From Acholeplasmataceae bacterium (GTDB lineage: Bacteria > Bacillota_I > Bacilli_A > Acholeplasmatales > Acholeplasmataceae), in contig JAGYLU010000004.1 in NCBI GenBank assembly GCA_018400755.1, positions 1 through 62,108 on the forward strand: a stretch of 62,108 bases of DNA, given 5' to 3'. Under the pieces are notes generated by a model. That model was not told the DNA's origin, did not search any database, and worked only from the letters and a program-made list of their open reading frames with translations. Every line of letters starts with the position of its first letter. The first letter of the stretch is position 1. Below are positions 38,254-43,938 of the stretch, piece after piece. A program made the translations under genes and the position numbers.

Positions 38254-40131
38254 ATGAACCAAAACAAAGAGACATCCTCTAAGCGGCAACAACCCATGGC
38301 AGGACCACGGGGCAGCAGATATATTGAAAAGGCTCAGGATTTCAAGGGCACGATGAAAAAATTGGCGGTCTATCTGAAGCCGTTTCGATTCAAACTGATG
38401 GCGGCAGCCATCTTCGCGATGATGGCATCGCTTGTGAGTGTCCTAGGGCCATGGCTTTTGGGGTTGATCACATCGGAAGTTGCCGATGCCTTTGAACGCG
38501 ATCCTGGCAATTTGGTCATTGGCTCAATCAACATCGTCTTTGGCATCAGTCTGTCATTGATCGGACTTGTTGTCCTGATTGCTGGTATCTACGTGGTTGC
38601 CGGAATCCTTCACTATTTGCAGACGTTTATGTTGATTGGGATGACCCAGAGCCTGACCTATCAGATGCGTCGGGATTTGTCAGCCAAACTCAACCGTTTG
38701 CCACTCAAGTATTTTGACAATCAGTCGTTTGGGGATCTGCTCGGGCGGGTCACCAACGATGTCGAGACCATCAACCAGACGCTCACGCAAAGCTTATCGG
38801 AAATATTTAGAGCGTTCGCCCTTTTGACCGGTATTTTTGTGATGATGTTCCTGTTGAGTCCGATTCTGGCCGGTGTTGTCGTGGTCACAACCATCGTCAG
38901 CCTCTTTGTCGCGAGATATTTCGTGAAGCTCTCACAAGGCTATTTCCGCAAGCAGGCCAAATCATACGGTCAACTTACCGGACACATCGAGGAAACCTAT
39001 AGTGGACAGACGGTTGTCAAGATCTTCAACCATCAGGAAAAATCGTTTGCCCAGTTTGATCAGATCAACAAAGATCTTCATCACAGTTCAGTCAGAAGCC
39101 AGTTTATCTCAGGTATCATGTTTCCAGTCCAGTTCTTTATTGGCAATATCGCCTACATCCTTGTCGCGGCGATCGGCGCGTTGCTTGTCTTATCGGGAAA
39201 CCCGCTGATATCGATCAGGGTCGGTGTCATCCAGACATTCATCCAGTATACGAGACAGATCAATCAGCCGATTCAGTCACTTGGCAGTGTCGCCAACGTC
39301 TTGCAGTCAACAGCAGCGGCGGCAGAGCGTATCTTTGGCTTGTTGAATGCCGAAGAGGAAAGTCCGGAACGTGATGATCTGAAGGTTCTTGATCATGTCA
39401 AAGGACATGTCGAGTTCAAGGATGTCCATTTCGGATATTCAGAGGATACCGAGGTTATCAAAGGGTTCTCCGCGTTGATCAGACCAGGACAAAAGGTCGC
39501 CATTGTCGGCCCCACTGGGGCTGGGAAAACGACCATTGTCAACCTGTTGATGCGATTCTACGAAATCAAGTCAGGGGCGATCCTGATCGATGGTATCGAT
39601 ATCAGGGACATGAGAAGAGCAGACGTCAGAAGTCTCTTTGGCATGGTGTTGCAAGATACCTGGCTGATCGAGGACACCATTTATGAGAACATCCGCTATG
39701 GCTCTCTTGACCGCTCGATCATCGAGATTCAAAAAGCTGCGAAATCCGCTCAGACACACCATTTCATCGAATCACTTCCTGATGGATATCAGTTCATGCT
39801 TTCGGAAAATGGTCTGAATGTCAGCCAAGGTCAAAGACAGCTTCTGACCATCAGCCGAGCGATGCTCGCTGATCGGCCGATGCTGATTCTCGATGAGGCG
39901 ACCTCATCAGTAGACACCAGAACCGAGGTTTTGATTCAACGGGCCATGGAGAAACTGATGGAAGGCCGGACGAGTTTCGTGATCGCGCACCGGCTCTCGA
40001 CCATCAAGGATGCGGACATCATCTTTGTCATGGATGACGGCAACATCGTCGAACAGGGAACGCATAGCGAATTGCTTGAGAAAGATGGATTCTATGCACG
40101 TCTATACAGAAGCCAGTTTGATGCCCAATGA
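38254..40131 (+). CDS. ABC exporter half-transporter D (canonical Walker B)
   Basis: A 625-residue half-transporter with a hydrophilic N-terminal extension (about 40 residues, rich in K, Q and S), six membrane helices, and an ATPase domain. Walker A is GPTGAGKTT (about 417), the signature is VSQGQ, changed from VSGGQ, and Walker B is LILDEATSSVD with the glutamate. Together with half-transporter C it leaves one competent ATP site. The genes are 2 bases apart, so translation is coupled. An inverted repeat lies 10 bases after its stop. Confidence 0.93.
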   Translation: MNQNKETSSKRQQPMAGPRGSRYIEKAQDFKGTMKKLAVYLKPFRFKLMAAAIFAMMASLVSVLGPWLLGLITSEVADAFERDPGNLVIGSINIVFGISLSLIGLVVLIAGIYVVAGILHYLQTFMLIGMTQSLTYQMRRDLSAKLNRLPLKYFDNQSFGDLLGRVTNDVETINQTLTQSLSEIFRAFALLTGIFVMMFLLSPILAGVVVVTTIVSLFVARYFVKLSQGYFRKQAKSYGQLTGHIEETYSGQTVVKIFNHQEKSFAQFDQINKDLHHSSVRSQFISGIMFPVQFFIGNIAYILVAAIGALLVLSGNPLISIRVGVIQTFIQYTRQINQPIQSLGSVANVLQSTAAAAERIFGLLNAEEESPERDDLKVLDHVKGHVEFKDVHFGYSEDTEVIKGFSALIRPGQKVAIVGPTGAGKTTIVNLLMRFYEIKSGAILIDGIDIRDMRRADVRSLFGMVLQDTWLIEDTIYENIRYGSLDRSIIEIQKAAKSAQTHHFIESLPDGYQFMLSENGLNVSQGQRQLLTISRAMLADRPMLILDEATSSVDTRTEVLIQRAMEKLMEGRTSFVIAHRLSTIKDADIIFVMDDGNIVEQGTHSELLEKDGFYARLYRSQFDAQ

Positions 40132-40133
40132 CC

Positions 40134-40162
40134 TTTACATTCGGCAATGATTAAGATATAAT
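40134..40162 (+). promoter_or_regulatory. tRNA-Arg promoter with flanking inverted repeat
   Basis: TTTACA (40134-40139), 17-base spacer, TATAAT (40157-40162). The -10 box sits in the loop of a 9-bp inverted repeat, CGGCAATGA (40142-40150) and TCATTGCCG (40165-40173). Confidence 0.75.
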
Positions 40163-40178
40163 ATTCATTGCCGGTCTT

Positions 40179-40255
<77 letters not shown>

Positions 40256-40268
40256 CTTAGATACCTAG

Positions 40269-40300
40269 ACCCGGGTTGGTACCTTCAACTCGGGTTTTCC
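40269..40300 (+). terminator. Terminator after tRNA-Arg
   Basis: ACCCGGGTTG (40269-40278) pairs with CAACTCGGGT (40286-40295, one G-T pair), then TTTT. Confidence 0.8.
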
Positions 40301-40384
40301 TTTAAACATCTTGACAAGTATGACTTATATATGCGTCAAATATAAATAATGCTTGTAACAAGACACGAATATGAGACGATGTTC

Positions 40385-40611
40385 ATGTTTAAATTGAAGG
40401 AATATAGACAGAAGTTCAATATGACACAACGCGATGTCGCGGAAAAACGGACATCACTCAGGCTTGCTATTGGCGATGGGAAAACTATAGCAGTTTCCCA
40501 GATACCAAACAAATTGTCCTACTTTGTGAGATATTCAATTGCACTTTAAACGATCTATTTGGCATCCAAGGCATTGATACGGCTGCAAAAGAATCTGTGG
40601 ATGGCTTTTGA
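40385..40611 (+). pseudogene. Frameshifted XRE/HTH_3 transcriptional regulator
   Basis: MFKLKEYRQKFNMTQRDVAEK, read from ATG 40385, is the first half of a Cro/CI-type HTH domain. After codon 21 the homologous reading continues in another frame (DITQACYWRWENYSSFP, then CEIFNCTLNDLFGI), ending at TGA 40611. One base appears to be missing near 40448-40450. An intact copy would be about 75 residues. It is AT-rich compared with the flanking core genes and sits just after tRNA-Arg. It may once have controlled the neighbouring ATPase gene. Confidence 0.8.
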
Positions 40612-40663
40612 TTGGTTTGTGACATCTTCTCGTCGTATGTTTCCCCCCCTTAAGTTTTGTAGC

Positions 40664-40780
40664 TCATTCATTAAGCAACGAGATAAAGGCCTTAACTAAG
40701 CCATCATCTCGTTTTTTGTCCCAATAAGGGCAGTGACCCTTTCCTTTCTTCAATGCCTGAATCAGCTGTTCCTTCCAGAT
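40664..40780 (-). pseudogene. Protein remnant, minus strand
   Basis: Reading the - strand from 40780 gives 38 codons before a TGA, including IWKEQLIQALKKGKGHCPYW and DDGLVKAFISLLNE, which look protein-like in composition. There is no start codon, and a TAG directly precedes it with a short open stretch before that. I do not recognise the family. It may be the tail of a decayed mobile-element or accessory gene. Confidence 0.3.
40677..40717 (+). terminator. Hairpin terminator in the islet
   Basis: AACGAGAT (40677-40684) pairs with ATCTCGTT (40706-40713), with an inner GGC...GCC stem, and a T6 run. It would stop transcripts coming from the XRE remnant. Confidence 0.7.
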
Positions 40781-41122
40781 CTATCTCTTATCAATCGCCC
40801 CATATTTTAAATGTCTTATCTGTGTTCAAAATCAGTGTTGATACGGTTTAACGATTCCAATCGGAATAGGTCAGGTGCAAATATTCTTGATTTTGATTGA
40901 TGTATATCATGTTGATTTTAAGAGATTGTAATTGTACATATGAGAAAACGCCTAAATTAGATTTAGGAATGCCATTCAATCGTGTCAATCAAACACCAAT
41001 ATTTTATTTATGAAAAGTGAATCAATAGAGTGGCTCACAGCATTCAGTGTAAGATGAGATTCCGAAAAAAAACGACTAAGCGTTTACATGATGTATGACA
41101 CGCACAATAAAATAACTATATT

Positions 41123-41142
41123 TTTGTTTGAATTCAAACAAA
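41123..41142. repeat. 20-base perfect palindrome
   Basis: TTTGTTTGAATTCAAACAAA is self-complementary over all 20 bases. It ends 11 bases before a TATAAT at 41154 and about 105 bases before the ATPase start, so it overlaps where a -35 box would be. It looks like an operator. Confidence 0.7.
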
Positions 41143-41246
41143 GTCAATAGACCTATAATTCCCCGATTTCCCTAGAATTCCCGAGATAACACGGTTAATG
41201 AACGAAAATGCCAAGAACGGCAAAAGTGTTCAGAGGGGGTCATTAT

Positions 41247-42484
41247 ATGATGATCAATAGAGATGAGCATTTAAAAAAGCTAATCGACAGTAAGCATATA
41301 AACCTAATTAAAGTTGTTTCAGGGACTAGAAGAAGTGGCAAATCATATTTACTAGACCCGCTCTTTACAAATCATTTAAGGGAATCTGGTGTTAACGGAG
41401 ATCACATCATCAAGATTGATCTAGATCAACTGAAAAATCATAAGTATCATGATCCGTACTTGCTAGATGAATATATTAGAGAAAAATAATCGATGAAAAC
41501 ATGTACTATATTCTACTTGATGAGATTCAGCTTGTTTCAAATCTTGAATCATTACTAAATGGTTTTTTAAATATGCATAATGTGGATGTCTATGTTACCG
41601 GGAGTAATTCGCGATATTTATCATCAGATATAGTTACCGAGTTTAGAGGAAGAAGCCATCAAATAAGGATTTATCCTTTGTCTTTTAGAGAGTTTCATGA
41701 AGCAAAGAACCTGAATAAACTCGAATCTTATCAGCAATACATTAGATTTGGTGGTATGCCACTTCTTATCTCATTGGAAAGTGATCTAGAAAAATATGAG
41801 TATTTAAAAAACTTATTTGAATTAACATATTTCAAAGATATCATAGAAAGGAATCATGTTGAAAAGAACGACGTTTTATCATCGTTAACTCAAGTGATTG
41901 CATCTTCTATAGGGTCATTAACAAGTGCAAGAAAACTTACAAATACATATAAAAGCAATGGGAATAATGAATTATCTATTAACACTGTCATCGCATATTT
42001 AGGGTATTTAAAAGATGCCTTCTTAATTGAAAAGGTTAACAGATATGATGTTAAGGGTAAACGGTATATTGAATCAACTTCAAAATACTATTTCACAGAT
42101 ATTGGATTAAGAAATACCATGCTTAATTTTAGACAACAAGAAGAATATCACATCATGGAAAACATTGTCTATTTGGAATTGGTAAGAAGAGGATATTATG
42201 TCGATGTTGGCATTGTTGAAATTAGAGAAGGAGATGCTAGAAAACAACTCGAAGTAGATTTTGTTTGTAACCGACATAATAAAAGATACTATGTACAAGT
42301 TGCCCTCAATTTGGAAACAAGAGAAAAGACGATACAAGAGACAAGACCGTTTTTACATATTGAAGATAGTTTTAAAAAGATTATTATCGTGAAAGATGAT
42401 ATCATGCCTTGGATAACAGAAGAAGGAGTCCTAGTGATTGGGATCATTGAATTCTTATTAAATCCAGATAGTCTAAATCTATAA
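41247..42484 (+). pseudogene. AAA_14/DUF4143-type ATPase, frame-interrupted
   Basis: Two reading frames together encode an ATPase of about 412 residues of the AAA_14 + DUF4143 type. The first (41247-41489) has Walker A GTRRSGKSYLLD (about residue 27). The second (from 41501) has Walker B YYILLDEIQLVS, the sensor VYVTGSNSRYL, the RIYPLSFREF segment, and a C-terminal DUF4143 domain ending in EVDFVCN and YYVQV. The frames join across a run of five A bases (41481-41487 area) where one missing base, or a -1 slip before TAA, would restore the frame. Low GC and AT-rich codons contrast with neighbours, suggesting transfer. These ATPases are common accessory genes of unknown purpose. Confidence 0.8.
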
Positions 42485-42577
42485 ATGTTAGGCAGTGATG
42501 CTACTGATGCAGTCACAGATAGTGGTTTATCCATGCATAAATCAGAAAATGATATCCTTGAATGGGCAATAGACTAA
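42485..42577 (+). other. Short reading of 30 codons, possible remnant
   Basis: ATG 42485 to TAA 42577 encodes 30 residues (contains HKSENDILEWAID). There is no ribosome site and no recognisable family. It could be the tail of a decayed gene. Confidence 0.2.
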
Positions 42578-43125
42578 AAAAAAACAAGTGAATCAAGATT
42601 TCGGACCTGTTTGAATCACCTGTCCGGCCTGCATTGAGCCAAGATACGGACAAGGGTGGGCCACCAAAACGGAGTAACTGAGCCATTCGCTATACAAGGT
42701 AAACACAAGCGAATGGCTTTATATGTCTAAGTATCTAGACAGTCCGGTAATCAAGTAAAATATGATGATTCATAGGTCATCCTGTGTCATATTTGAAACG
42801 AGGCCAAACAATGACCAATGACTGCTGATTCTAAGACTGCACACTCACAAAGTCAGTTAATGGAGTATTTCGTATGATAAAGCCAAGAGAGAACGCTTAG
42901 CTTTACCATACGAAAAAAGGGGTTGTAACGACATAAGGACAGCCTAAAGTAGGAACCGCCCCGGAAAACTCGAGGCGGTTTTTGGTATTATGAACTTATG
43001 AGAGCGACATGACACCTTAGACTAGTCTAACCTTTATCGTATACAAAAGGGACTATAACATCCACGAGAGTCATCGGATTCTTATTATGTTGCAGCCCCA
43101 TGTTTGGAAATTGAAAATGAGGATT
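42578..43125. other. Hairpin-rich non-coding stretch
   Basis: This stretch has no convincing gene but several inverted repeats: 42602-42626, 42681-42718 (10-bp perfect stem), 42724-42741, 42758-42794, 42868-42915 (16-bp stem with one mismatch) and 42954-42983 with a T5 tail, then a 14-base palindrome at 43017-43030. It may carry one or more structured RNAs or the ends of a decayed element. Confidence 0.5.
42954..42983 (+). terminator. Intrinsic terminator in the islet
   Basis: AACCGCC (42954-42960) pairs with GGCGGTT (42974-42980) and runs into TTT. Whatever is transcribed upstream on the + strand could end here. Confidence 0.65.
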
Positions 43126-43938
43126 TCACAAGTTGAAATAAGAAATCAACCAACGGGCAACCCCATCATTATCATGATCATTTGTCGTGATGTCATCAGA
43201 GACTGAAATCACTTCCTCACAAGCGTTTTTCATAGCGACACCAAGATGGGCATCCCTGATCATCTCAACGTCATTCGTGCCATCACCGAAAGCAATCCAT
43301 TGTTCCTGTTTAAAGCCATAGTGATCAAGAAGATAACTGATGGCAGATGCTTTGGAGATATGTTTGAGATAGACTTCATAAATGGCATGTTTTCTATCTG
43401 TGCCCCAAAGTCGATAAGACAGGGTATGACATAGTTTGGTATCGATATAGGTCTCAAAGGTTTTGTGGTCACCCATTCGGACAAGAAAGATGATTCCTGA
43501 AGGTTCGACGTCGAGTTCATCGAATGGTTTTTCGATGACGATCCCAGACGGGTTTGTTTCTGCGAAAAAGGCTTCAAGACGCCGTTCATACTTATAGGCA
43601 TAGACAACATCATCAAGGCTGAAAAAAGCAGAATCGAGCATGTCTTTGCTGAAGGCGAACAAGTCATGCATGAGTTCTTTGGGGATGAATGTTCTCTGCC
43701 TGGGAAATGATGGATCGACAGGATTTTGGATCGAACCACCGTTATCTGTGATCAACGGAGTGTCAAGTCCTAATGCGGTATATTTCGGATAGGCACCGCT
43801 AAAGGGTCTTCCGGTCGCAATCACGACCACATGGCCAAGATTCCTGACTTTGTCGATGACCTGTTTCGTGGTCTCGGTAATGGTCCCGCGGGCACTGAGC
43901 AAAGTGCCATCGAGATCGATAGTGATCATATGTTTCAT
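43126..43938 (-). CDS. Cof-type HAD-superfamily phosphatase
   Basis: A 270-residue HAD hydrolase of the Cof/YidA type. The nucleophile motif DLDGTLL is at residues 8-14, motif II TGRPFSG at about 42, and motif IV FGDGTNDVEM at about 218, with a mixed cap domain between. Such enzymes act on sugar phosphates, flavin or PLP precursors; the substrate cannot be told. ATG 43938 has no strong ribosome site; ATG 43929 is an alternative. Base composition is that of the core genome, marking the right-hand edge of the AT-rich islet. Confidence 0.9.
   Translation of the reverse strand: MKHMITIDLDGTLLSARGTITETTKQVIDKVRNLGHVVVIATGRPFSGAYPKYTALGLDTPLITDNGGSIQNPVDPSFPRQRTFIPKELMHDLFAFSKDMLDSAFFSLDDVVYAYKYERRLEAFFAETNPSGIVIEKPFDELDVEPSGIIFLVRMGDHKTFETYIDTKLCHTLSYRLWGTDRKHAIYEVYLKHISKASAISYLLDHYGFKQEQWIAFGDGTNDVEMIRDAHLGVAMKNACEEVISVSDDITTNDHDNDGVARWLISYFNL

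Follow-up and report, generated by a model that had tools for sequence, protein, structure and literature searches.

The AT-rich islet next to the tRNA-Arg gene of this Acholeplasmataceae genome is fairly likely a decayed member of a group of self-repressing, laterally moving defence-type genes that would insert with long target duplication. The window, the whole stretch of 62,108 nucleotides that was analysed, is contig C174 of a 2.23-Mb metagenome-assembled genome. Under this scenario, foreign AT-rich DNA would have been inserted between tRNA-Arg and a HAD hydrolase gene to give the islet, and the core of the islet would be the remains of a single-gene unit, in which an operator palindrome, a promoter and a second operator palindrome precede a STAND-type ATPase with a PD-(D/E)XK-like domain (PDC-S01). 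Sequence comparison shows an insertion, a lateral origin of the gene and, in many relatives, a promoter-like site between covarying palindromes. In most of the loci that could be compared, it also places the edges of the unit at outer palindrome and stop codon, and a minority of units have long direct repeats around them.

The features of the islet and its two neighbours are collected in Table 1. The islet (2870 bases) has a GC content of 0.353, falling to 0.314 over 41199-42484, compared to 0.484 in the flanks (left 20 kb, right 18 kb). Outside the islet, the 58 1-kb windows have a mean GC of 0.482, with an SD of 0.021 and a minimum of 0.426. The first-pass annotation of this DNA, which had described a clear drop in base composition between tRNA-Arg and the HAD gene, is thus borne out by the GC comparison. 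It had also described two broken genes, and for the ATPase this holds: the one large gene of the islet is split by a single frameshift between 41489 and 41501, with the Pfam family AAA_14 matching both pieces and DUF4143 the second. For the XRE-like regulator, the reading of 40349-40615 in two frames was made by eye, and the first piece is without a Pfam match. As the contig belongs to a metagenome-assembled genome, the frameshift in the ATPase may be a sequencing error.

Table 1. Positions in the window of the islet, its parts and its neighbouring genes.
Feature	Position	Strand	Basis
tRNA-Arg(UCU), left neighbour of the islet	40179..40255	+	ARAGORN, Rfam
AT-rich islet, absent in G002, G017 and G004	40256..43125	.	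GC, empty sites
XRE-like regulator in two frames, pseudogene	40349..40615	+	by-eye reading
Debris with decayed relatives on C218, C159 and C79 of the same genome	40656..40804	.	
34-bp palindrome, the proximal one of the unit	41199..41232	.	homology to G008 and G045 begins at its first base
ATPase (AAA_14-DUF4143) 5' piece, Walker A half	41247..41489	+	ORFs, Pfam
ATPase 3' piece with Walker B, lid and DUF4143; PDC-S01	41501..42484	+	ORFs, Pfam, PADLOC profile
Debris with small palindromes, without a long ORF	42485..43125	.	
HAD (Cof-type) hydrolase, right neighbour of the islet	43126..43938	-	Pfam

The remainder of the islet consists of smaller fragments. The debris to the left of the unit is 71-77% identical to its relatives on the three other contigs, apparently remnants of a repeated gene end. 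To the right of the unit, the inverted repeat at 42868-42915 is a terminator-like or REP-like palindrome of the dispersed kind: over 37 nt, a part of it shares 95% identity with a sequence that closely follows a RecA-like ORF of the same genome (locus L005). The peptide following the ATPase stop at 42485-42574 was considered as a displaced gene end and dropped, having no match outside the window in 41 genomes.

The junction that holds the islet is empty in several relatives. In G002, a member of the same genus, tRNA-Arg and the HAD gene are 45 bp apart, while in G017 and G004, from the same family, the distances are 60 and 62 bp. As the two genes are adjacent in all three, the islet is an insertion, in line with what had been proposed from the window alone. 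Other relatives have different contents at the junction. G019 has 650 bp between the two genes. In G011, from another genus, they are about 2.0 kb apart, and an ATPase_2-DUF234 gene with a match to the PDC-S27 profile lies in this space, flanked by a 97-bp direct repeat (78%, E 5e-17). Like the window, G011 therefore has a single ATPase gene at the tRNA-Arg/HAD junction, in G011 between direct repeats, although PDC-S27 and PDC-S01 are separate profile families. Given these inserts, DNA has entered the junction more than once.

The ATPase itself was acquired laterally. Two members of the same family, G008 and G045 (loci L054 and L055), carry the ATPase unit of the window. The ATPase genes of the window and G008 are 80% identical in DNA while the HAD proteins of the two are only 39% identical, so the gene is of lateral origin. 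In G008, the intact homologue matches the PADLOC profile for PDC-S01 over 2-406 of 412 positions (E 3e-123) and the 3' piece in the window matches it with an E of 8e-95, making the window gene a broken PDC-S01 member. We take COG1373 ('predicted ATPase') to be the same AAA_14-DUF4143/PDC-S01 family. Beside the intact unit of G008, an ORF fragment that looks resolvase-like by eye lies at the contig end (L030, 3-311).

An AlphaFold2 model of the ATPase, built from 47 sequences (mean pLDDT 90), suggests a STAND-like ATPase with a nuclease-like C-terminal domain. The best solved relatives of the model are SSO1545 (2fna, Z 17.2) and PABY2304 (2qen, Z 16.9), STAND/AAA+ ATPases that presumably carry a winged helix. 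The alignment covers residues 1-294 at 19-20% identity, and the C-terminal domain falls outside it; by sequence, no PDB chain was matched. Modelled alone, the C-terminal domain has one Foldseek match with an E of at most 0.001, the Bax1 endonuclease (E 6e-4), with BspD6I, McrC, Hjc and Can2 among the weaker matches at higher E. All five, to our understanding, belong to the PD-(D/E)XK nuclease superfamily. In the 47 sequences, D338 and Q351 are invariant while the canonical PD-(D/E)XK lysine is Ala in 45, so that the complete D...(D/E/Q)xK catalytic set is absent and nuclease activity is doubtful.

The control region of the unit is best seen in its relatives, for which one genome per species was scanned and the best 80 of 381 were used (loci L054-L133). 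In many of them the gene is part of a discrete 1.4-kb unit in the order palindrome, promoter, palindrome, gene, with the palindromes at the left end. As scoring of single palindromes was noisy, it was replaced by pair scoring, and two loci with too little upstream DNA were left out. Two 34-bp palindromes upstream of the start score above the best of 395 shuffles in 55 of 78 loci; the other 23 are without such a pair. The spacing is 72-78 bp in 54 of the 55 pairs, and exactly 76 bp in 34. Complementarity and identity of the two sites both enter the pair score, and in L056 the best register is a direct repeat beside the palindromes. Outside the 80 loci, the pair was found in one of six homologues with 46-60% identity and was absent in all 11 below 45% identity (scores 31-42, threshold 43). 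In L056, L059 and L076 an extra tandem copy of the 75-76-bp palindrome-promoter block is found upstream, giving three palindromes in a row. Of the 71 loci with a left neighbour gene, 61 have it in the orientation of the unit.

The arms of the palindromes vary among loci yet stay complementary, covarying as Watson-Crick pairs. After 22 sites out of register and 19 duplicates were removed from 110, pairs 3-5 and 13-16 are formed in 0.57-0.97 of the 69 distinct sites compared to 0.25-0.63 expected, while pairing at positions 7-10 and 17 is not, or hardly, above expectation. The shuffle test is the fairer of the two, because complementarity was among the criteria by which sites for the covariation count were chosen, and pairing at the two outermost positions was a requirement.

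Between the palindromes lies a promoter-like site in 54 of the 55 pairs. For the test, loci were split by record titles into Bacteroidota and others, except that L114, titled Oscillospiraceae, was grouped with the Bacteroidota because it is 96% identical to L111; the shuffles preserve nothing but base content. A sigma-70-type promoter with at most three mismatches of 12 is found in 37 of 38 non-Bacteroidota loci compared to 10.1 in shuffles, and with at most two mismatches in 27 of 38 compared to 1.5. All 17 Bacteroidota loci have TAnnTTTG between the palindromes (0.8 in shuffles), which we take to be the Bacteroidota promoter element. We infer from this layout that the palindromes are operators for the product of the gene itself, perhaps acting through looping: the protein would bind its own two palindromes as an oligomer and loop the promoter DNA, keeping expression low until a trigger, probably phage, appears.

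In the window, the control region is incomplete. A site with at most one mismatch to the consensus palindrome is present in 3 of 101 relatives of the window genome (the window's own, G008 and G045), upstream of the ATPase each time. Homology of the window to G008 and G045 sets in at 41199, with the first base of the proximal palindrome, so that the window copy has neither the distal palindrome nor the promoter. Its pair score is 32 while its own shuffles reach 33, so no palindrome pair is shown there. With its promoter side gone and the ATPase frameshifted, the element is decayed, as the first-pass annotation had suspected. The copy is probably dead, because it keeps one palindrome, has no flanking repeats and is frameshifted.

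The edges of the unit were mapped where close relatives allow it. Of 34 loci for which a partner reached 85% DNA identity or more, 31 had enough flank, and 27 were left after removal of pairs with shared flanks. The left edge of homology is at most 12 nt from the outer palindrome in 19 of the 27, and the right edge at most 12 nt from the stop in 24. Among the eight loci with a left edge farther off are L059 and L076, which have the additional palindrome copy upstream. Where the two loci share no flanking protein (32 pairs), the left edge lies within 14 nt in 22 and the right edge within 8 nt in 28.

Some units are also bounded by long direct repeats. Seventy of the 80 loci had enough flank for this comparison and, together with the window, make a set of 71 units. 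A direct repeat of at least 40 bits between the left and right flanks is found around 10 of the 71, compared to 0.8 expected from mismatched pairs, while 61 are without one, and none was found around the window islet. The repeats are 43-227 bp long, all 10 are direct, and seven begin within 30 bp of the stop. In L065, the repeat is a terminator and the start of the next gene, not a gene end. Among control genes in the same contigs, 1 of 222 has such a repeat, and this one, in L108, clusters with AAA_14 genes. The difference between units and controls is 10 of 71 to 0 of 221 (p = 4e-7), or 5 of 66 to 0 of 221 with serS counted once (p = 6e-4). Outside the 80 loci, 13 of 17 AAA_14 loci had enough flank, and L167 has a 539-bp match at 75%. 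At L108 3625-7402, two adjacent AAA_14-type ATPases have their own repeats, of 366 bp (88%) and 129 bp (90%), as if two insertions were stacked.

Six of the 10 repeat-flanked units lie behind serS, so the independent cases may be as few as five. The right copy begins 140-155 nt upstream of the serS stop in four of these. A filled and an empty allele could be compared at this site: G118, with a seryl-tRNA synthetase 98% identical to the one of G116, is without the unit, 69 bp in L173 standing where L079 has 2.0 kb. The DNA of the 11 serS-sited units is 85-96% identical in the compared pairs while the synthetases are mostly 67-83% identical, speaking for exchange of the unit between species at the site. 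On the tree the serS-sited units are clustered without forming one clade; four changes are needed, and no bootstrap tree has only one. Taken alone, the strongly supported branches are compatible with a single origin, so these units may have been vertically inherited.

The unit would spread between genomes as one gene with its control region. It would enter intergenic DNA and the ends of genes and duplicate long stretches of the target, as reported for restriction-modification genes. There is an even chance, in our estimate, that this movement is passive throughout, through uptake of donor DNA and RecA recombination or through illegitimate joining. The long direct repeats would then come from single crossovers at captured gene ends, with the palindromes plain operators that have no part in movement. 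Consistent with this, the repeats vary in length and match the host gene end in part, and in each of the 17 genomes searched a single copy reaches 88% identity or more, any others staying at 68% or below, unlike an insertion sequence with its several near-identical copies per genome. However, the edges recur at the outer palindrome and the stop even in loci without shared flanking proteins, and repeats of this kind flank no other gene type among the 221 control genes.

It seems rather unlikely that the unit is instead a self-mobilising single-gene element, in which the STAND ATPase-nuclease represses its own promoter via the two palindromes and, when released, acts on target DNA. Were it so, the unit would be copied into terminators and gene ends with long target duplications of variable length, and defence gene and insertion machine would be one protein. 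That the repeats are tied to this gene type argues for the ATPase driving entry; the missing lysine and the single close copy per genome argue against it. A viral vehicle was rejected, as the query used gave no relative in IMG/VR, and relatives encoded on 20 phage and 237 plasmid records are all below 60% identity. An excised circle was rejected as well: NZ_CP133466.1 (L139), a circular 2630-bp Prevotella record with only two annotated genes and no replication gene annotated, does not represent a unit closed into a circle, since it codes for a TaqI-like specificity-domain protein in addition to an ATPase of PDC-S01-like kind.

The first-pass annotation had pointed to the 3' end of the tRNA as a classic integration site, and the islet could be the remnant of a genomic island or prophage, for which a tyrosine recombinase used the tRNA-Arg 3' end before the integrase was lost, leaving the ATPase as cargo. 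This is unlikely, even though the islet comes directly after tRNA-Arg and the inserts at the junction differ in content among G000, G011 and G019. The 3' end of the tRNA is not directly repeated within 39900-43400, and the recognisable unit begins 0.94 kb from the tRNA. No integrase or transposase was seen among the ORFs of 38-46 kb, six of which were put to Pfam, in agreement with the earlier reading of the region. Where a repeated piece is visible at the junction it is not tRNA, as that of G011 is made up of a terminator and the 3' end of the HAD gene. Among the best 80 of 381 relatives, eight loci have any tRNA in the available flanking DNA and one has a tRNA within 100 bp of the unit. Therefore, tRNA-Arg is probably not the integration site.

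The palindromes might also act in RNA, as transcript hairpins or attenuators rather than as DNA operators. As the end of the -10 box is most often 5 nt before the proximal palindrome, that palindrome would be near the transcript start, as this reading expects. The distal palindrome, however, is upstream of the promoter and yet matched to the proximal one in each locus. In addition, G-T pairs are below expectation at pairs 4, 5, 14, 15 and 16 (pair 13 has 0.14 compared to 0.11 expected), and Rfam gives no family in the window besides the tRNA. A role in RNA is thus quite improbable. An artefact of assembly or binning, as might be suspected from the 239 contigs and 2.6% contamination of the genome and from the unusual base composition of the islet, is very improbable, given that the islet is embedded in a 62-kb contig, flanked by two genes that adjoin each other in three relatives, and that other parts of the genome hold decayed relatives of some of its pieces.

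The gene family is widespread. In the accessible part of one report, PDC-S01 is an ATPase fused to a PD-(D/E)XK-type domain and the fourth most common defence system across prokaryotes, with counts of 29,494 in bacteria and 9,986 in archaea, several cross-domain transfers inferred, and experimental validation pending for most such defence candidates (PMC12988326). In the available text of two others, PDC-S01 is the most frequent individual locus in rumen genomes (PMC13356809), and COG1373 is listed among genes common to different genera (PMC10782964). Both the G008 homologue and the 3' piece of the window match the profiles of this single-gene phage-defence candidate strongly, though the window copy is broken. 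In the parts of the PDC-S01 literature covered, which include little from subscription journals, we found no account of the control or spread of the gene, and no mention of the palindrome pair, the unit edges or the direct repeats.

The closest parallel for the movement is the insertion of restriction-modification genes with long target duplication in Helicobacter pylori (Nobusato et al. 2000, cited in the accessible portions of PMC1643837 and PMC3031569). In both cases, long direct repeats that vary in length flank a gene that comes without a recombinase (here in 10 of 71 units), and an empty allele can be compared to a filled one, as at serS; the site of the window is empty in G002, G017 and G004. 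Our units differ in that they encode a STAND-type ATPase, in that several of the repeats begin at roughly one position within serS, and in that they bring along their own palindrome-bracketed promoter. The window itself is without a target duplication.

Having its own control region, the unit may be able to work in any host. As a control circuit, the promoter enclosed by two covarying 34-bp palindromes with fixed spacing can be tested directly, and the coincidence of the unit edges with this circuit, along with the long repeats at some loci, provides a testable route of spread. With two different single-gene candidates at one junction in two genera, the tRNA-Arg/HAD junction appears to be a small defence hotspot. 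The islet in the window is a decayed trace, while the intact unit found in its relatives is a testable variant of a known gene family.
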